From NCBI GenBank assembly GCA_951799425.1, contig OX637404.1, positions 19,671,545-19,735,544 of the forward strand: a stretch of DNA of 64,000 nt. The letters run 5' to 3'. Origin of the DNA: Ilex aquifolium. Its lineage: Eukaryota > Streptophyta > Magnoliopsida > Aquifoliales > Aquifoliaceae. Position numbers and translations under genes: made by a program. Under the pieces are notes generated by a model, which was given only the letters and a program-made list of their open reading frames with translations, searched no databases and was not told the DNA's origin. Below are positions 4,421 through 27,942 of this stretch, in pieces; within the stretch, counting starts at the first letter, position 1; each line of letters begins with the position of its first letter.

Positions 4421-4620
4421 TTACACCAAAATACACACACAAACACATATACTATTGCACCAAAATACATGCACATGCACACACTCATACACACATTATT
4501 ATACCAAAATACACATGCACACAATTACACCAAAATACACACATACACTATTATATTATAATACACACACTATTACACCAAAATACATGCAGACACACAC
4601 CCTATTATACCAAAATAAAC
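4255..4620 (+). repeat. CA-rich minisatellite
   Basis: Variants of ACTATTACACCAAAATACAC alternate with CACACA runs for about 365 bases. Open frames in either strand here are low-complexity shadows. Confidence 0.9.
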
Positions 4621-5450
4621 ACATCAGTTAGTTTCTAATTTTAACAGATCAACGATTAAAAAAAAAATGACAAACTCTACCGCTCCTTCGATATGATATC
4701 AATTATCATTGTTTATCCTAACTTTATTTTTTCCATTTTTCTCGTAATCACAATCTAGGCCACATAAATTCAGCATGTGATTTATAGACTCCATTGATAT
4801 ACCAACTCCTAATCTTGTTAATACTTTTCCTCTTTCTAGTTTATGATTCAAATCCCTTAGAATTTTTTTAATCACAATTTTGAAAGGCTTTAATTATTTT
4901 TATAAAATACCTATTTTTTTGCTTACAAGATTCCTTAATTGTATTATTCGTGTCTAATTTATTTATTATTCATCAATTAGTTGTGCCATAAATTTTATGT
5001 TGGGTCGGGTTGTGCCGTGTTCGTATCAATGGGTAAAATATCTGTTACAAAATTTGATCTGTTTATTCGACATGTATCAAAATAATAATTCAAATCTGAA
5101 TATGTTAAGAATTGAACCTCCGATCTGATAGTCCGGTCCGATCCGAATAAATAAAATTCCAAAAATCACATCAAATGACGAACAATTTCACTAAATTACA
5201 TCTGAATTTCATCCATCAATAACTTAATTCCAACACTTTGAGTATAATTTCATAAATAATCCAGCTAGTTTCAACAACATAAATGTTGTTATGCTGTGGA
5301 TTTTGACCGACGTCAGCCTTGAATCTCACCAATAAGGTTGTATCTCTCACATTCAAACTGTGAAGGGCCCAAATAGCATTGCTTGGGGACGATGAACAGA
5401 CGGAGGAAAAGAGAAAAAGGAGATAAAGCGGGACAAAAGAGGGAAACCTC
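4621..5450. other. AT-rich non-coding insert sequence
   Basis: No gene, tRNA or clear repeat end is visible. It belongs to the roughly 4.6 kb that separate the two parts of LINE ORF1. Confidence 0.5.
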
Positions 5451-5759
5451 ATGGGGGTGTTTGGATTGAGGGATAAAGGGGGATAAGGCAAGTTGGATTG
5501 GGTAAAAGAATGTAAGGGCCCACAAATCCCTGCTTTGGCTAAAAAAATGGAACCGGATATTTGTTGGCTTTGAATGCATCGGCCCGTAGTGATCGGAGCC
5601 CAATATCCCTTCTGAAGCGGATATATGTAACCCATGGAGCATATGGGATTCAAATTTTGTTGATAGGGTTGATCGGTATTTTACGAAAATACCCCTGCAA
5701 TTGATTAGGTTTTTACCCTTTGTCTGCCAATTCATTTCTTCAACCAACCCACTAATCTC

Positions 5760-5762
<3 letters not shown>

Positions 5763-5803
<41 letters not shown>
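5763..5803 (+). repeat. (CT)n microsatellite
   Basis: About 20 CT repeats; shorter CT tracts follow near 5852-5873 and 5955. Such tracts are common in plant 5' leader regions, and this one sits 280 bases before the first exon cassette. Confidence 0.95.
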
Positions 5804-5806
<3 letters not shown>

Positions 5807-6074
5807 AATACGGCGCACGGTGGAAGCAGATCTAGGTACGCTTCTTTCGCCTCCTCTCTCTCTCTCTCTCTCTCCTTCGTTCTCTTTGTTGGTGCTTCCT
5901 CTCTCTTTCTCTAGCTCATAACCGTTGCGTTTTTTTCTCTCTGCCAAACCCATCTCTCTCTCTCTGCGAAGAGGTGTGCATAAGTTAGGTGAGGTGGGGA
6001 GAGAGATTCTGGTGTTGGGGAAGGGATTATTTTGTATGAGTTATACTTGGTGGGTTTGCGACTGTATTTTTCAG

Positions 6075-6271
6075 ACAAAAAATGGCTAATCTTGCTGGTA
6101 AAGTTGAGGCTGAAGTTGAGATAAAATGTGATGCTGATGAGTTTTTCCACAGCTGGGGTGGTAAGCCACACCATCTACCAAATTTGTGCTCTGAAAAATT
6201 GCACAACGTTGAAGTACATGAATGTGACTGGAAGACAGAGGGTTCTGTTAAGCTTTGGACATTTGTTCATG
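6075..6271 (+). pseudogene. Major latex protein-like exon 1, copy 1
   Basis: The frame opens at the ATG at 6082 and reads 63 codons plus one base to a G|GTAAGG donor at 6271/6272. Residues such as GKVEAEVEIKCDADEFF, KPHHLPNLC and the V-x-x-C/G-DWKTEGSVKLW pattern match the N-terminal half of the MLP/RRP branch of the Bet v 1 fold, which in plants binds hydrophobic ligands. The intron falls in phase 1 of a glycine codon near residue 63, the place known for Bet v 1-type genes. Known full proteins are about 150 residues, so this is less than half. It has no stop codon, but no second exon follows, so a working product is unlikely. Confidence 0.75.
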
Positions 6272-6395
6272 GTAAGGAAAACACAACTCATAAAAATATT
6301 AGAGGAGTCTATTTAATTTCCAGTATGAGCTGTTGTTGCTGATCTTGCTATTTTGTATGAGTTATACTTGGTGGGTTTGCGACTGTATTTTTCAG

Positions 6396-6592
6396 ACAAA
6401 AAATGGCTAATCTTGCTGGTAAAGTTGAGGCTGAAATTGAGATAAAATGTGATGCTTATGAGTTTTTCCATAGCTGGGGTGGTAAGGCACACCATCTACC
6501 AAATTTGTGCTCTGAAAAATTGCACAACGTTGAAGTACATGAAGGTGACTGGAAGACAGAGGGTTCTGTTAAGCTTTGGACATTTGTTCATG
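6396..6592 (+). pseudogene. Major latex protein-like exon 1, copy 2
   Basis: This has the same structure as the first cassette, with ATG at 6403 and GTAAGG donor after 6592. It differs by a few residues (an Ile for Val in the first strand, Tyr for Asp after CDA, an Ala in place of Pro before HHLPN) and restores the EGDW motif usual for the family. The frame is open. Because the exon is 197 bases, joining two cassettes would shift the frame, so only one could be used per transcript. Confidence 0.72.
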
Positions 6593-6716
6593 GTAAGGAA
6601 AACACAACTCATAAAAATATTAGAGGAGTATATTTAATTTTCAGTATGAGCTGTTGTTGCTGATCTTGCTATTTTGTATGAGTTATACTTGGTGGGTTTG
6701 CGACTGTATTTTTCAG

Positions 6717-6913
6717 ACAAAAAATGACTAATCTTGCTGGTAAAGTTGAGGCTGAAGTTGAGATAAAATGTGATGCTGATGAGTTTTTCCACAGCTGGGG
6801 TGGTAAGCCACACCATCTACCAAATTTGTGCTTTGAAAAATTGCACAACGTTGAAGTACATGAAGGTGACTGGAAGACAGAGGGTTCTGTTAAGCTTTGG
6901 ACATTTGTTCATG
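6717..6913 (+). pseudogene. Major latex protein-like exon 1, copy 3
   Basis: ATG at 6724, acceptor and GTAAGG donor are intact and the frame is open. It starts MTNLAG rather than MANLAG and has Phe for Ser before EKLHNV; otherwise it follows the family pattern including EGDWKTEGSVKLW. Confidence 0.72.
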
Positions 6914-7037
6914 GTAAGGAAAACACAACTCATAAAAATATGAGAGGAGTCTATTTAATTTCCAATATGAGCTGGTGTTGCTGATCTTGCTATTTTGTAT
7001 GAGTTATACTTGGGGGGTTTGCGACTGTATTTTTCAG

Positions 7038-7234
7038 ACAAAAAATGGCTAATTTTGCTGGTAAAGTTGAGGCTGAAGTTGAGATAAAATGTGATGCTGA
7101 TGAGTTTTTCCACAGCTTGGGTGGTAAGGCACACCATCTACCAAATTTGTGCTCTGAAAAATTGCACAACGTTGAAGTACATAAAGGTGACTGGAAGACA
7201 GAGGGTTCTGTTAAGCTTTGGACATTTGTTCATG
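7038..7234 (+). pseudogene. Major latex protein-like exon 1, copy 4
   Basis: This is the last cassette, with ATG at 7045 and GTAAGG donor after 7234. It starts MANFAG and has Leu for Trp in the SWGG motif and Lys for Glu before GDW. The repeat ends at about 7306 and the following sequence is unrelated, so the intron after this copy has no visible acceptor or second exon. Confidence 0.72.
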
Positions 7235-7306
7235 GTAAGGAAAACACAACTCATAAAAATATTAGAGGAGTCTATTTAATTTCCAGTATGAGCTGCTGTT
7301 GGTGAT

Positions 7307-8650
7307 TTCAAAATTATTATAAAAGTGTCTTACAATAGAAAAGAGCACAGATAAAAAACTATTATCCAACAATAAATTATATCTTACTTACTGCTAAAAG
7401 CCTAGGCCAACAAGAAGACAAGTGTGGATCTGTGTCTGTGTGTAAGTGTGGATATGTGTCTGCGTTGGTGTGTGCAAGTGTGGATCTATGCGTGTTTGGA
7501 TTTCAAGTTGATCGAATTGTATATTGTCATCGAGTTTCAGTGTGACCGAGTTGTATATTGTGATTTAGTGTGGATGTACGTTTTTTTTTTTTTTTTTAAT
7601 ATTCAGTTTAATAATATAAAGTTAATAATTGGGTCAAACATGCAGTGGTTACTAAACATGTTTTTTTGTTTTTATTATTGTGGGGTAGGGGATTTTCATA
7701 GAGGGCTTTGGTATGAAGTTGGCGAGCTTCGATCATTACCGGGACTGATTTCGTTTTCTCTCTCTCTCACTTATTCCATTTTTCGATTCATCAGAGATCT
7801 ATTAGATAACCAGCCAGCTACGTAGATCAAACAAATTATTATATGTACATGGATTTTTTCCCCATATTTTTATCTTCAAATTTATCGCTTTGTTCAACAA
7901 TTGCTGCCTCGCATGAATGACCACATTGCTTGGATCTGGGTTTATGAAGGTGCAGAGGGAGGTTTGAGGGCGTAAAAAGGAATTCTCATGCTATTTTTTT
8001 GTTGATTCTCAATTGCTTGAGGCTTTTGTTATAAAGATGCTGCTGCTTCAGGATAGATGTGAATTTCCTGCCTTCAGGAAGAGCATAGCTTTGGTGATGA
8101 ATCCTTAGCCGAGAGTTGAAGTTGTATAAGGATCTAGGGAGGAAGAGGTTTTTTGAGATTTTATTCTTTGTTGTATTTGGTTTGTAAGGGTGAGGTGAAG
8201 CAGATCCCTCTTACTTGTAATTTTTACCGAAAGCAATAAAATCATTCTTTCTAAAAAAAAAAATGTAATATGTTGAGATGAATTGAGTGTTGCACAATGC
8301 TCATAAAAAAAATTAACAAAAAACAAAAAATTCGACAAAATAAGTATAATTTATTTTATGGACTTGATTTTTTTATTATATTATTATTTTCAAGTACCTA
8401 TTCATCCAAATCAATGTTTGACACCATACTCATCCAAAGTTGGTATAGGGTTAGATTATATTTTTTTCTAAAGGGTGTAATGGTCATTTCATCAATTTTT
8501 ATTTAGACATGTGAATGAGTCCATAAAACAAATGTTTTCTATCCAAAGTAAGGATAGGATTTGATAAGAATGGATCAACCCGGACTACTCTGCATTGGGT
8601 TGGATTGGATTCGGATTTAAATCTAATCCAACCCAATCCTCCCATGGGTA
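7307..8650. other. Non-coding sequence after exon array
   Basis: A TG-rich stretch, a poly-T run at about 7579-7597 and AT-rich DNA are seen. No second exon of the latex-protein family, no transposase and no RNA gene could be recognised. The frames here are short and unlike known proteins. Confidence 0.5.
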
Positions 8651-8762
8651 TCCAAACACCCCCCATGGGTACCTAACTCGATTATATCCCATACTAATAA
8701 AAAGAGGTACCCAACCCATTTATTCATGGGTGGGTTATGAGTTTAAATTGCCACTCCCAGCC

Positions 8763-8782
8763 GTTACTAATGGGCCAGAAAT
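8763..8782 (+). repeat. Direct repeat of 4094-4113
   Basis: GTTACTAATGGGCCAGAAAT occurs identically at 4094 and 8763, and similarity extends several bases either side. It may mark both edges of the insertion into LINE ORF1, or be one of the TGGGCC-type repeats internal to ORF1. Confidence 0.7.
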
Positions 8783-8803
8783 AGTGGGTCCTTTTAACAC
8801 TAA

Positions 8804-9587
8804 GGGCATGTTTGTTTGAGGATTGCTATACATGGATTGAGAAATGTATTTCTTATATTTTTAATACCCATAGAAACTAATACAGGTAATAGAAAGTATT
8901 TCAATCCCCTCTCATATTTGTTAATTCAATAGGTATTATGGTGGATCCCATAAATCACCATCTATTCTATCATATCTTATATAACAAATATACAATTTTA
9001 TCCTTAAAATCATCCATTCCATTAATTAATTCTAAATGTATGTACATAAAAAAATTGTAAAAAAAAAAACTAGTGACACTCTACGCTTAAACATATTATA
9101 TGGAAAAAATTTAAAATAATTTTTTTTTAGAAAACGTAAAAAAAACGGTGACAGCTTAAACATAATATAAGAAAAAAATTAAAAAAAAAAAAAAGCCGTT
9201 GACACCGTACACTTAAATATAATATAAGGAAAAAAATTCAAAATCAACATTTTTTTAAAAAAAATTAATAAAATTAAAAAACAAAAAACCGTCGGTGGTC
9301 AAATCTCATACTAACATTAAAAGCCGAATGGTAATTCAGTCATTAATCTCCTTAATTCTGTTGGTGGCCAAAATCCAAAAAATAATACCACCTCCTAGAT
9401 GGTATAATATATACCCATCTACATGGGTCTATATAGCTACTATTGTAAATGGCGGGTCGGTATTGCAATCCAAAAAATAATACTACAAAAAAAAAGACAA
9501 ATAAATAAAGTATTATTGAGCTCTCAAGTACTATTTTCCCTAATATCACCGTCTTATACCACCGTTATTCTTAAAACAAACATGACC
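8804..9587. mobile_element. Tourist-like (PIF/Harbinger) MITE
   Basis: The left end GGGCATGTTTGTTTGAGG and the right end, read in reverse as GGTCATGTTTGTTTTAAG, form imperfect terminal inverted repeats. They are flanked by TAA at 8801-8803 and TAA at 9588-9590, the 3-bp target duplication of this superfamily. The 784-bp interior is AT-rich with A/T tracts and has no transposase. It is inserted in the LINE ORF1 region. Confidence 0.75.
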
Positions 9588-20844: not shown

Positions 20845-21045
20845 ATATTTTTTTTCTTTTCAAATACATGCTTGCTATTTTTTCTCTTTTTTTTTTTTTT
20901 TTTTCAATCTGTTTTTTTCACTGCTAGACATATTGTCTTTTTTTTTTTTTTTCAACTTTTTTTTTTTTCTTTTCTTCTTTTTTTTCAGCAAGACATCTAA
21001 TGCAAATATTCACAAGTATGTAAAACTCTTTTTTTTCTTTTCTTT
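20845..21045. repeat. Poly-T/CT-rich low-complexity stretch
   Basis: Long T runs with scattered C; the counterpart in the second copy is 25806-26010. Phe-rich open frames here are artefacts. Confidence 0.9.
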
Positions 21046-22015
21046 TCTTAACCAACATCTCCCAAATTACATAAACAATAAAAATTCAATCTCAGGATAA
21101 CCAAGGGTAAAAGATATTATTTTTTTCATTGGCTTGGTTATTATATGTTGGGTATAAGAAATAAATTTTTGCTTCAAAGGCTCAATCATGGCTTATAGGG
21201 ATAATAATATTCAAAGAATAAGGTTTAGGCTCAAATAATCAAAGATGGCCTAAAATCATATCTCAAGAGCTTTTGATAACACACTTCCCATGCAAATAAT
21301 TCAAAGTCAAGCAATAATTCACAATATTGGTGTTAACCAAAACAAAAATAATGAGACTATTGAAGGAGAATAGCTGAATAAAAATATTTTTTATTGAGTA
21401 AATGTAAATAACCCTTCAAGAAAGATTGGATCAAAACTCACTAGGGTTTTTATGCATCTCCACTATATGTTTCAAGTTCTCAAGGTAAAATACCTAATAA
21501 ATTTTCAACTTGGTAAAGTCTAAAGTGCACAAATTTTGAGTTTTTATAAGAACATGATATGAAATACAAAAATATAGAATAAAGTTCTATATAATGCTTA
21601 AACAGTTACAAATTTAAAGTTAAGCAAATTATTTCTATATTGTGGTATCAAATTATGCATAAAAATGTTATTTAAATATTTAATAACCAACAAATTTTTT
21701 TTATATTTTTTTTTTTTAGCAAAGTAAATAAACTAAAAAAAATAAACTAGGAATTTTCACAACACAAGGCATACTCATACCCCCAACCTAAATCCAACAT
21801 TGTCCTCAATGTAAAAATAAATATCTTATTGCTCAGTAAAAATAATGAATAAAGATCAAAGAGATAGGAATACCTGGTGCTGCAACAACTCAAAAACCTA
21901 AAAATAAAAGACTTGACAAAACTATAAATTAAATCAAATAGAAACAAAACTAAAATTAAAAATAAAATAAAATAAAATCTAACTACTATGTACAAATAAA
22001 AATAAAAGCTCACAC

Positions 22016-22789
22016 TCAATCCGGCTTAAAGTCATATTTGAATATGCGACCATTCAATTTTATTGGATTAAAAATGTAGTGTCGAAGCAACTCTTTTAAT
22101 CGAACTATCCACTCATATACCCAAGATATTATTAGAGTATGCAAGAAAAGGGAGATATATACATTTTTATGCAAATCTAACATTGAGATAGAAAATAGAT
22201 TTTTATCAATTACAACACACAACTCAACTTTCATACCCTCACTAAGATTAGATATGTGAATGTCATTACTACTTGTTGATAATGAAAGGTCTTTGGGCTC
22301 ATTAGCCTCTTGTGGAATAATAATGTCACTAAATTCTTCACTATCAAGAGTATTAATGGATTCATCCTCAGTTTGTAGTTCAGGAAAAGAATCACTCTCA
22401 TATTGACTATTTTTAACCTCTTGTTTTTGTATCAATATATTGAGTATATCTTGTATCTCTTTAATATCTTGACTTGTTTGGGCATTGAAAGCTAGTTGGT
22501 TTTGCATAAATTCGTTAAGAATATTCTCCAAATTCTCTTCTTGTAGGTCATGGTAGGGTGGATATTGGGGAGGGTCTTGTGGAGATGTGACATATATAGG
22601 TAACTGATAATGTTCATTCCCCCAACCAAAATTGGGATAAAAAGTTTCAAAACAATGGTCGGGGTAAGGTTGAGACGAATTAGGTAAGACAATTGTCCCA
22701 TTCCTCAAAATTTTTCGAGCAGTTGGAATTAAAGGGCAAACCTCAATGGGATGCCCATACACATCACAAAACACACATAGTTCCTCCAT
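22016..22789 (-). CDS. Zinc-knuckle protein of the non-autonomous element, copy 1
   Basis: The only convincing frame of the internal region encodes 257 residues. The start MEELCVFCDVYGHPIEVC contains a C-x2-C-x4-H-x4-C knuckle like that of retrotransposon nucleocapsid. A Pro/Tyr-rich stretch (ENLENILNEFMQNQ nearby) and an acidic middle follow; the C-terminal third is more hydrophobic and basic. No capsid core, protease or polymerase is seen. It lies about 200 bases after the primer site, where gag normally begins. It could be a shrunken Gag that lets the RNA be packaged by a helper, or have no product. Confidence 0.6.
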   Translation of the reverse strand: MEELCVFCDVYGHPIEVCPLIPTARKILRNGTIVLPNSSQPYPDHCFETFYPNFGWGNEHYQLPIYVTSPQDPPQYPPYHDLQEENLENILNEFMQNQLAFNAQTSQDIKEIQDILNILIQKQEVKNSQYESDSFPELQTEDESINTLDSEEFSDIIIPQEANEPKDLSLSTSSNDIHISNLSEGMKVELCVVIDKNLFSISMLDLHKNVYISLFLHTLIISWVYEWIVRLKELLRHYIFNPIKLNGRIFKYDFKPD

Positions 22790-22984
22790 CAGGAAAAATC
22801 TTCACACCACATTAAAAGAAATATAAAAATAAAAATTATGAAATATCTAACCTGAGGAAAAATAAAACAAATAATTAACAAATAAATAATAATAAAAAAA
22901 AAGGACGAGATTACCGGATCTGTGACGAATCTCAAATCAAGCAAACCTCAATAGATGGCGATGTGTTCTTTGCCTTCAAACAAT

Positions 22985-23002
22985 TCCCCGGCAACGGCGC
23001 CA
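22985..23002 (-). other. Primer-binding site (tRNA-Asp), array copy 1
   Basis: The plus strand shows TCCCCGGCAACGGCGCCA, identical to the 3' end of plant tRNA-Asp(GUC) including CCA as I recall it. It lies six bases from LTR 2. Confidence 0.9.
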
Positions 23003-23008
23003 AAAACT

Positions 23009-24916
23009 TGCTACAACTTTAGAATTGATCACCCAAGTGCAGGTTGTGCGAAGTAATAAATTTCTCGGGAATCCGAGGTCGAACCACAGGGAATTATGAA
23101 AACAAGAAACAATCACACGAACAATAAAAGTAATTTGAAAGGAAAAAATATTTGCTTGGAAAGTTGTTGATTGGAGAAAAGTGATTTTTGTAATTAAAAC
23201 AGTAATAAAATAAATACTAGAGTATCAGGTACTCTCTCTCCACTTCATACAATAATAGTTAAAGACTCAAAGCTTGACTTGAAACAGGAATTAAATGTCA
23301 GTTAATCCGATTAACAAATCAAGTGATAAATCCAAAGGTTATAATCAAAAGACTACCAGGAACCTGAATAATCATTCAATCATATTATTTTATGAAATAA
23401 TGTTAATCCTTCCAGCGTGGAATAACCAGTGATTTACACGCAAGGAAAATCAAGCAATCGATGTACGTGGCACAACAACTCAGGAGTTTATACAGCATAA
23501 ACACTTTGCTAAAAGATTAGGGATTAAATTAACACAATAACATAAATCCTTAAGTACAAGAGTCAATAAAAATACCGTACTCCGTCGAGAGGTTTTCCCC
23601 TAACCCTAGCTTAGCCTTCTAGCCAGACATGGTAAAAAGATGGAGAAAAAAATAAATAAAATAAATCATAATCTAATTTCCCTCTCTCAATAGATGAGAG
23701 CCTCTATTTATAATAAAATAAATCCTAAGTACAGGTTGAAAGGAATTCCTTTCCCAAAAAGATGTCTTGTAAGGTTAAATCCCGTGCATAAATCTTGGAG
23801 TCCGCGGGTACATAATCTGTCCAGACTTCGAGCTTAGATTTCGCATATTTAGAGGTTGAATCACGAAATTTTCGTGAAATACACTTCTGTAGCCCTTGAA
23901 GTCTTCTTTCCAACCCCACAAAAATCGGGTAAATCAGATATCAGAGTCAAAAGTTATAACCGAAATACTGAAGACGTGTCAAATCCTTATCTTCTAGGAA
24001 ACTTTCCTAATCCAACTTTAAATGAGTTTTCTTCTAACTTGGACTCTTATAAGGATTAAAATGCTGATTTATCTTCAAGTCTTCCTATCTCAATCTTGAC
24101 TCTTCAATCCTTATCAGTTATGATTCTTCCTCTAGTGATTGCTTCACTTGCATTATCCATTATTACTTTAAATCAATCAATTTACCTGCAAAATAAACCA
24201 AACAGCTAGAAAAATATCAAACTAGAAAATCAAGGAATTTAACACATTTAATCACAAATAATATGCAATTAATCAATCATTAAATATAATAAAATAACAC
24301 TTTTGATGGTTAATAAAATAAATCCTAAGTACAGGTTGAAAGGAATTCCTTTCCCAAAAAGATGTCTTGTAAGGTTAAATCCCGTGCATAAATCTTGGAG
24401 TCCGCGGGTACATAATCTGTCCAGACTTCGAGCTTAGATTTCGCATATTTAGAGGTTGAATCACGAAATTTTCGTAAAATACACTTCTGTAGCCCTTGAA
24501 GTCTTCTTTCCAACCCCACAAAAATCGGGTAAATCCGATATCAGAGTCAAAAGTTATAACCAAAATACTGAAGACGTGTCAAATCCTTATCTTCTAGGAA
24601 ACTTTCCTAATCCAACTTTAAATGAGTTTTCTTCTAACTTGGACTCTTATAAGGATTAAAATGCTGATTTATCTTCAAGTCTTCCTATCTCAATCTTGAC
24701 TCTTCAATCCTTATCAGTTATGATTCTTCCTCTAGTGATTGCTTCACTTGCATTATCCATTATTACTTTAAATCAATCAATTTACCTGCAAAATAAACCA
24801 AACAGCTAGAAAAATATCAAACTAGAAAATCAAGGAATTTAACACATTTAATCACAAATAATATGCAATTAACCAATCATTAAATATAATAAAATAACAC
24901 TTTTGATGGTTAATCA
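23009..24916 (-). repeat. Array LTR 2 (recombinant, with 600-bp duplication)
   Basis: 1908 bp. Its left part (23009 to about 24140) agrees with LTR 3 wherever LTR 1 and LTR 3 differ. Its right part carries the duplication and the variants of LTR 1. The switch falls between about 24141 and 24270. Confidence 0.9.
23711..24910 (-). repeat. 600-bp tandem duplication of U3 in LTR 2
   Basis: Copies at 23711-24310 and 24311-24910 with an exact 600-base period. The duplication is absent from LTR 3. Confidence 0.93.
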
Positions 24917-26973
24917 CACCCCTCAACCTGAATATTACTAGTCCCTAGTAATACATGTATCACAAAATCTAAAAACTAAAAAATAAAATAACCTAATAAA
25001 ATAAAATACAAATCCACTTTCGTAGGACTCACGATTGCATTTAGCATATGCAACAAGCCTTTAAACCCCTAGGTTCCCCCTAGTGGACGAGTATAGTCTC
25101 GTGAAGGTTTGCAGAGATGATACCCACAAACATCAACCTGTAATCAAATATCTAAATAATAATTTTATAACACAAATTGCTACCACAATCTAAAAATTCT
25201 AAGATGCAAACTCTTTATAAGCACATGCAAAACAAAATATAGAACTATGCGCTATATAAATGTATGCACTTATCATATTCTCATATAAACTCGTGTGTAG
25301 TGTGAATTAACTATACCAAGTCAGTAATTTATCTGCTAATCACCTCTACAACTATCAACTATTCGTCTCAATGCCAAATCTCACTAGATAATTCACTCAT
25401 AAAAGATTCTCTCAGATTATAGTGACTATTCCCTCAAATATCACATGTGAGAAGAAGATATTTAAGTCAAAACAAAATAATGCTCACATGTTCCATTAAA
25501 ATAATTGTAATCCAAAAGAAATTGATTTGACATAATCTCATGAAAGGAAATCAACACACAATAAATAAATAATCACCATTTTCTTCCTTATTCACACAAG
25601 TCATGCATCCATCAATACACTCTTGAGATCAAATAGGTCTTTATTTAAGGTTGTAATGGGGCCTTGGGATTAGGGTTTTGAAACGAAGGATATTCAGGAA
25701 TTCAAAAGATTATCCCGAGAGAACATGTACATTACACAACCAAACTTCTTTCCATAGTCTTTCACTCTCCATCCTTTAGAAGCACAATTTACATCACTTG
25801 CTCATATTTTTTTTCTTTTCAAACACATGCTTGCTATTTTTTCTCTTTTTTTTTTTTTTTTTCAATCTGTTTTTTTCACTGCTAGACATATTGTCTTTCT
25901 TTTTTTTTTTTCAATTTTTTTTTTTTCTTTTCTTCTTTTTTTTCAGCAAGACATCTAATGCAAATATTCACAAGTATGTAAAACTCTTTTTTTTCTTTTC
26001 TTTTCTTAACCAACATCTCCCAAATTACATAAACAATAAAAATTCAATCTCAGGATAACCAAGGGTAAAAGATATTATTTTTTTCATTGGCTTGGTTATT
26101 ATATGTTGGGTATAAGAAATAAATTTTTGCTTCAAAGGCTCAATCATGGCTTCTAGGGATAATAATATTCAAAGAATAAGGTTTAGGCTCAAATAATCAA
26201 AGATGGCCTAAAATCATATCTCAAGAGCTTTTGATAACACACTTCCCATGCAAATAATTCAAAGTCAAGCAATAATTCACAATATTGGTGTTAACCAAAA
26301 CAAAAATAATGAGACTATTGAAGGAGAATAGCTGAATAAAAATATTTTTTATTGAGTAAATGTAAATAACCCTTCAAGAAAGATTGGATCAAAACTCACT
26401 AGGGTTTTTATGCATCTCCACTATATGTTTCAAGTTCTCAAGGTAAAATACCTAATAAATTTTCAACTTGGTAAAGTCTAAAGTGCACAAATTTTGAGTT
26501 TTTATAAGAACATGATATGAAATACAAAAATATAGAATAAAGTTCTATATAATGCTTAAACAGTTACAAATTTAAAGTTAAGCAAATTATTTCTATATTG
26601 TGGTATCAAATTATGTATAAAAATGTTATTTAAATATTTAATAACCAACAAATTTTTTTTATATTTTTTTTTTTTAGCAAAGTAAATAAACTAAAAAAAA
26701 TAAACTAGGAATTTTCACAACACAAGGCATACTCATACCCCCAACCTAAATCCAACATTGTCCTCAATGTAAAAATAAATATCTTATTGCTCAGTAAAAA
26801 TAATGAATAAAGATCAAAGAGATAGGAATACCTGGTGCTGCAACAACTCAAAAACCTAAAAATAAAAGACTTGACAAAACTATAAATTAAATCAAATAGA
26901 AACAAAACTAAAATTAAAAATAAAATAAAATAAAATCTAACTACTATGTACAAATAAAAATAAAAGCTCACAC

Positions 26974-27747
26974 TCAATCCGGCTTAAAGTCATATTTGAA
27001 TATGCGACCATTCAATTTTATTGGATTAAAAATGTAGTGTCGAAGCAACTCTTTTAATCGAACTATCCACTCATATACCCAAGATATTATTAGAGTATGC
27101 AAGAAAAGGGAGATATATACATTTTTATGCAAATCTAACATTGAGATAGAAAATAGATTTTTATCAATTACAACACACAACTCAACTTTCATACCCTCAC
27201 TAAGATTAGATATGTGAATGTCATTACTACTTGTTGATAATGAAAGGTCTTTGGGCTCATTAGCCTCTTGTGGAATAATAATGTCACTAAATTCTTCACT
27301 ATCAAGAGTATTAATGGATTCATCCTCAGTTTGTAGTTCAGGAAAAGAATCACTCTCATATTGACTATTTTTAACCTCTTGTTTTTGTATCAATATATTG
27401 AGTATATCTTGTATCTCTTTAATATCTTGACTTGTTTGGGCATTGAAAGCTAGTTGGTTTTGCATAAATTCGTTAAGAATATTCTCCAAATTCTCTTCTT
27501 GTAGGTCATGGTAGGGTGGATATTGGGGAGGGTCTTGTGGAGATGTGACATATATAGGTAACTGATAATGTTCATTCCCCCAACCAAAATTGGGATAAAA
27601 AGTTTCAAAACAATGGTCGGGGTAAGGTTGAGACGAATTAGGTAAGACAATTGTCCCATTCCTCAAAATTTTTCGAGCAGTTGGAATTAAAGGGCAAACC
27701 TCAATGGGATGCCCATACACATCACAAAACACACATAGTTCCTCCAT
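26974..27747 (-). CDS. Zinc-knuckle protein of the non-autonomous element, copy 2
   Basis: The translation of this frame is identical to that of the frame at 22016-22789, over all 257 residues including the N-terminal C-x2-C-x4-H-x4-C motif. Identity is expected, because the second internal region arose by recent recombination, so it is not by itself evidence for selection. Position relative to primer site and LTR 3 is the same. Confidence 0.6.
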   Translation of the reverse strand: MEELCVFCDVYGHPIEVCPLIPTARKILRNGTIVLPNSSQPYPDHCFETFYPNFGWGNEHYQLPIYVTSPQDPPQYPPYHDLQEENLENILNEFMQNQLAFNAQTSQDIKEIQDILNILIQKQEVKNSQYESDSFPELQTEDESINTLDSEEFSDIIIPQEANEPKDLSLSTSSNDIHISNLSEGMKVELCVVIDKNLFSISMLDLHKNVYISLFLHTLIISWVYEWIVRLKELLRHYIFNPIKLNGRIFKYDFKPD

Positions 27748-27942
27748 CAGGAAAAATCTTCACACCACATTAAAAGAAATATAAAAATAAAAATTATGAA
27801 ATATCTAACCTGAGGAAAAATAAAACAAATAATTAACAAATAAATAATAATAAAAAAAAAGGACGAGATTACCGGATCTGTGACGAATCTCAAATCAAGC
27901 AAACCTCAATAGATGGCGATGTGTTCTTTGCCTTCAAACAAT

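Follow-up and report, generated by a model that had tools for sequence, protein, structure and literature searches.

How one exon of a gene comes to stand four times in a row, each copy with its start codon, open frame and donor site and none with the remainder of the gene, is the question raised by a locus in holly (Ilex aquifolium), together with the question of whether such a row is of any use to its host. The locus lies in a window, meaning the whole stretch of 64,000 nucleotides that was analysed (G000:C14:19671545-19735544, in an 800-Mb genome). The explanation that is very probably correct is the capture of a fragment of a major-latex-protein gene by a PIF/Harbinger-like Pack-TYPE element, the fragment having later been expanded by repair or unequal exchange and probably being functionless.

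The repeated exon

The four units (Table 1) follow one another at start-to-start distances of 321, 321 and 321 bp, and TRF reports a repeat at 6028-7306 of the window with a period of 321, 4.0 copies, 96% matches and a score of 2425, in agreement with the four tandem 321-bp units described in an earlier note on this DNA. In all four units the exon of 63 codons is open and ends in CATG, followed by GTAAGG. All of them match the Pfam profile Bet_v_1 above its cut-off (67.5-72.6 bits; E=9.3e-20 for unit 1), and a PDB search with unit 3 alone gave a match to MLP-like protein 28 (2i9y, E=1.1e-15). These matches, along with the exon 1/exon 2 pairs of the genome itself, bear out the earlier assignment to exon 1 of the Bet v 1/major latex protein family (PF00407; PDB 2i9y, 4reh), with which the units share the 63 residues of that exon. 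Whereas a functional major latex protein gene has exon 1 and exon 2 across Bet_v_1, the four units cover at most positions 3-72 of the 151 in the profile and are devoid of both exon 2 and the parental TATA-like region, which makes a whole protein impossible. The earlier statement that no second exon follows is upheld by the genome search, in which the four units are the sole entries on C14 among the 112 Bet_v_1 matches listed and no exon 2 is found on C14 among them. The same is true of the loss of frame predicted for joined units, as the reading frame is lost and a stop is reached when one unit is joined to another. A search of the genome with one unit returned 11 matches, namely the four units and seven places on C7, by which the array occupies a single genomic place.

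Table 1. Coordinates of the array, the captured fragment and the surrounding element within the window
Feature	Position	Strand	Remarks
Left target-site duplication CAT	5450..5452	.	identical letters at 8664-8666
Left terminal inverted repeat GGGGGTGTTTGGAT	5453..5466	+	read from letters
Element's own left part	5453..6031	+	82-84% identity to empty relatives
CT-rich stretch and donor-like GTACGC in element's left part	GTACGC at 5836	+	putative donor-like site
Unit 1	6029..6349	+	putative parent 5' UTR piece, exon 1, beginning of intron 1
Left capture junction TTGTAT	6032..6037	+	like neither empty relatives nor parents
Exon-1 coding part, unit 1	6082..6271	+	190 bases = 63 codons + one base
Unit 2	6350..6670	+	spacing, TRF, unit comparison
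Unit 3	6671..6991	+	spacing, TRF, unit comparison
Unit 4	6992..7306	+	continues unbroken into parent-derived intron 1
Exon-1 coding equivalents, units 2-4	6403-6592, 6724-6913, 7045-7234	+	
Captured remnant of parent intron 1	7307..7673	+	right end uncertain: 7642 (most parents), ~7676 (L009)
Element's own middle part	7674..7945	+	88-94% identity in L029, L030, L031; abuts left part in empty relatives
Element's own right part	7949..8663	+	AATAAA at 8235-8240
Right terminal inverted repeat	8650..8663	-	ATCCAAACACCCCC as read on + strand
Right target-site duplication CAT	8664..8666	.	

The transposon and its captured gene fragment

The array is housed in an element of 3,211 bp (5453-8663) with terminal inverted repeats and CAT outside both ends. 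These ends have the form of PIF/Harbinger-like elements, with the G-rich start and the TGTTTGG of GGGGGTGTTTGGAT at both of them, and are close to published consensus ends of this group, which include GGGKGYGTTTGTTTGAGGGTT and GNSYSTGTTTGGTT (PMC2213677). When up to two mismatches are allowed, the genome contains 49 copies of a related 23-letter left end, the one in the window among them, and none of the reversed control sequence; at least 59 matched pieces are related to the left part (40 of 145 candidates scored) and at least 63 to the right part (40 of 267 scored). The target-site duplication has a length of 3 bp but reads CAT, as opposed to the TTA/TAA of PIF/Harbinger. Among 15 elements, an exact 3-bp pair flanks four (CAT in the window, TTA in L037, TAC in L042 and ATA in L044), the flanking pair is one letter off in six (L030, L031, L033, L035, L036 and L043), and five have no matching pair or clear end (L029, L032, L034, L038 and L039). 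No DDE_Tnp_4 (PF13359) of an autonomous partner was found between GGGGGTGTTTGG-type ends among the 150 scored of 932 candidates, and the three regions that were read do not have these element ends. The transposase matches at C12:22785403, C19:18773205 and C14:15892650 were rejected as partners, since none of them falls within the related element at its locus. By the shape of its ends and its 3-bp duplication the element is filed as PIF/Harbinger-like, while the CAT, the few exact pairs and the lack of an autonomous partner among the candidates scored and the regions read count against this placement.

The CAT on both flanks suggests that the element moved, with or without the captured fragment. 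Neither flank, used as query, led to an empty insertion site in this genome: the left flank gave four matches, namely its own place in the window and three partial matches on C5, and the right flank (40 of 261 candidates scored) gave the window itself and 39 matches that start only at flank position 129 or later. The part of the left flank matching the three C5 places (38.06-38.19 Mb, 87-92% identity) is 5287-5423, perhaps a gene fragment. Elsewhere in the window, a duplication of about 5 kb is seen at 20937-27759, where two ORFs on the minus strand (22019-22801 and 26977-27759) agree in their first 70 residues and two rows of simple repeats recur at the offset of the ORF pair, 4,958 bases.

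The limits of the insert become apparent from relatives that do not carry it. In L029 (C8), L030 (C7) and L031 (C16), as well as in the more distant L039 and in L050, the left part of the window element (to about 6031) joins the part from about 7674 directly, and the sequence in between is therefore an addition in comparison with these five empty relatives. About 910 extra bases are present in L029 and L030 at window 7945/7949, which were either lost from the window element or gained by the relatives. The captured piece extends from about 6038 to 7673; the C7 copies that were aligned begin their homology at 6038, and the right limit of homology falls inside intron 1 (Table 1). A host-gene fragment thus resides in a non-autonomous element with its parent elsewhere (C7) and with relatives that are free of the insert, which is the make-up of a Pack-TYPE element, and the relic of gene capture that the earlier note had considered can now be assigned to a particular transposon and parent cluster and given breakpoints.

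ATTATT is found at both edges of the insert (6026-6031 and 7674-7679), as a single copy in the empty relatives, and also in the intron of L009, one of the C7 copies, close to the corresponding place. A shared word of at least six letters occurs at 0.36% of 200,000 random breakpoint pairs, a figure to be read with the uncertain length of the shared breakpoint word in mind, since the alignment of L009 at the right joint requires a 6-bp gap in a T-rich run. The pattern is in keeping with break repair within the element that involved a template switch to the gene and back. The captured stretch before the ATG looks like the 5' UTR of the parent: L009 has a TATA-like box some 70 bp upstream of the point at which the captured sequence starts, L010 has a similar one, and the captured piece does not include it. 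The captured intron has a 24-base tandem duplication (window 7420-7465) that is not present in the parent L010.

As judged by sequence identity, the source is the major-latex-protein gene cluster on C7, where the genome search proposed in the earlier note finds both the parent gene and its second exon at 39.08-39.26 Mb. The seven unit matches there are each isolated and kilobases from the next, and the exon-1 matches have exon-2 counterparts 2-3.5 kb further on (e.g. 39097421 and 39099911). Units and C7 copies are 94-98% identical over about 300 bases. Closest to the units is L009 with 6-9 differences in 291 bases, followed by the copies of the 12.7-kb cluster with 10-13 and by L012 (39264062) with 13-16, the latter having no start codon and one base missing in exon 1. 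As L009 is the nearest copy but has a foreign insertion in intron 1 (L009:2147-2446) which replaces part of the intron, a copy resembling L009 but still free of the insertion was probably the source. The exon-2 match of L009 is interrupted by one stop. At C7:39097365-39148564 there are five gene copies with a period of about 12.7 kb and an exon-1 stretch that is identical over 291 bases, which points either to tandem amplification in the very recent past or to an issue of the assembly.

Splice signals, coding changes and possible function

The description of the exon as splice-ready holds in part. The open frame, the ATG, the 190 coding bases and the GTAAGG donor are found in all four units, whereas the TTTTCAG taken for an upstream acceptor has lost its support: in the parents, TTTTCAG/AC sits between the TATA-like box and the ATG, which places it in the apparent 5' UTR. 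The CAG is kept in all four units, and TTTTCAG is found as in the units in L009, the closest parent, and in the more distant L012. TTTTAAG is found in five of the seven C7 copies (L005-L008 and L010), near-identical recent duplicates which amount to one lineage. Ten coding sites vary among the units, with nine replacement changes, one silent change and no stop, while neutral change would be expected to give 22.5% silent changes and 4.1% stops; for ten coding changes, the neutral chance of at most one silent change is 0.31 and that of no stop is 0.66. The coding changes are not different from neutral ones, and the open frames and kept splice letters are therefore no argument for use.

This bears on the idea that the units serve a chimeric gene as mutually exclusive first or cassette exons, with the element's own promoter driving transcription and with splicing either to the 3' segment of the element or to a distant exon. 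The GTAAGG after the exon and the CAG before the ATG, intact in all units, speak for it, as do the presence of the CAG in L009 and L012, the donor-like site in the left part of the element, and the acceptor-like site and AATAAA in the right part. The location of the CAG in the apparent parent 5' UTR, the ratio of nine replacement changes to one silent change and the lack of an exon 2 on C14 among the matches listed speak against it; furthermore, translation from a unit into the acceptor-like segment at 8052, the one downstream segment tried, gives Gly and then a stop. This makes the idea very unlikely. The alternative starts for a distant acceptor envisaged in the earlier note fare no better, with the parental TATA-like region not captured and an immediate stop at the 8052 segment. 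Of 37 window ORFs of at least 120 codons listed, nine were compared with Pfam, giving one DUF4283, three retrotransposon domains and five without match; for the eight ORFs downstream of the array, there were three matches to retrotransposon domains and five without any. A distant spliced gene may lie downstream of the array.

Retention of the array as a source of small RNAs that dampen the major-latex-protein cluster on C7 has similarly little to recommend it. The 94-98% identity to the C7 copies would suit such a role and four sense copies would raise the dose, but the region 4500-9500 has no inverted repeat of at least 40 bases, and the captured array exists at one genomic place only, as the 11 unit matches are four units and seven C7 copies. 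Highly improbable as well is the proposal of a live exon-shuffling device, in which the promoter and 5' exon of the element splice into one of the four captured exons at a time, truncated major-latex-protein transcripts or small RNAs regulate the C7 cluster, and the copy number acts as dose control. The array is probably without function, and the differences between its units fit neutral decay.

Capture preceded amplification

Each of units 1, 2 and 3 is followed by a similar joint, which reads GTTGCTGAT, CTTGC, TATTTTGTAT and GAG. Here, TATTTTGTAT is the left capture junction, and both TATTTTGTAT and CTTGC are missing from the parents at that place. As the joints carry the letters of the left junction along with filler absent from the parents, capture came first and amplification after it, and the likeness of all three joints traces the amplification to one joint. 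The CTTGC filler may have been templated, since three of the units also contain ATCTTGCT inside the exon.

The reverse order, in which a major-latex-protein gene was first duplicated in tandem and the whole array captured afterwards, could draw on the recent cluster amplification of five C7 copies, spaced at 12.7 kb. All seven C7 matches, however, stand singly and kilobases apart, and the unit joints contain letters of the element's left junction that are missing in the parents, which leaves this order disfavoured and extremely improbable. Assemblers can mis-size short tandem arrays of high identity, yet the expansion of a single unit by misassembly, raised earlier as a way in which the array could be spurious, has a negligible chance of being correct, because the units differ pairwise at 5-10 of 291 bases (1.7-3.4%) and every unit has private changes.

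For the capture followed by expansion, the following course can be proposed. Some 650-670 bp, comprising the late 5' UTR, exon 1 and part of intron 1, would have been copied into the interior of a non-autonomous element, probably when an internal break was repaired by template switching, the C7 gene serving as template. A later tandem duplication would have created the joint with the left-junction letters and the short filler, from which slippage or unequal exchange may have produced growth to four units. Internal tandem arrays are no general habit of the element family: TRF finds no tandem period of more than 105 bases in 20 other related regions, the 105-base case being L032. A family-related region, L049:5046-7109 (C14:16578045-16580109), has an array of 5.1 copies with a 399-bp period that is made of the left interior of the element and contains a first-exon-like segment with a donor-like site; no element ends were seen around it in the DNA read there.

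Several known systems resemble parts of this arrangement. Pack-PIF elements are known in maize and exon shuffling by such elements has been described (PMC8903248); they share with the holly element the host DNA with an exon between PIF-like terminal repeats and differ from it, as far as that account goes, in that the captured exon of holly is present fourfold in tandem. The acquisition event described for maize is compatible with the fusion of neighbouring elements, while both holly breakpoints are at one internal point (PMC8903248). In Medicago truncatula, 18 of 23 MtPH-A6-4 elements have 60-bp tandem repeats in 2 to 35 copies, for which abortive gap repair was proposed (PMC2213677). Here the likeness lies in tandem repeats of variable number inside a PIF/Harbinger-like element and in GTTTG at the same place in the terminal repeats, and the difference in that the 60-bp repeats are subterminal and come, in that description, with no captured host exon (PMC2213677). 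Animal Pack-TIRs have microhomology at one or both breakpoints in 67.6% of cases and are like the holly element in their short shared breakpoint words, interior breakpoints and mostly single-copy state, although their hosts are animals and the report concerned, as far as it goes, gives no account of the captured part forming a tandem array (PMC8277862). Pack-PIF elements and tandem repeats inside PIF/Harbinger elements are thus already known, whereas no report of a Pack-TYPE element with a tandem array of a captured host exon was met in a search of mostly open-access literature, in so far as the sources describe their elements.

The array is a modest but clear example in which one genome displays the capture breakpoints, the parent genes, the empty relatives and the order of capture and amplification. 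This makes it useful for the study of how Pack-TYPE elements form, with no function implied here. A host exon inside a transposon can multiply in place with its donor site intact, which is plausible raw material for tandem exons.
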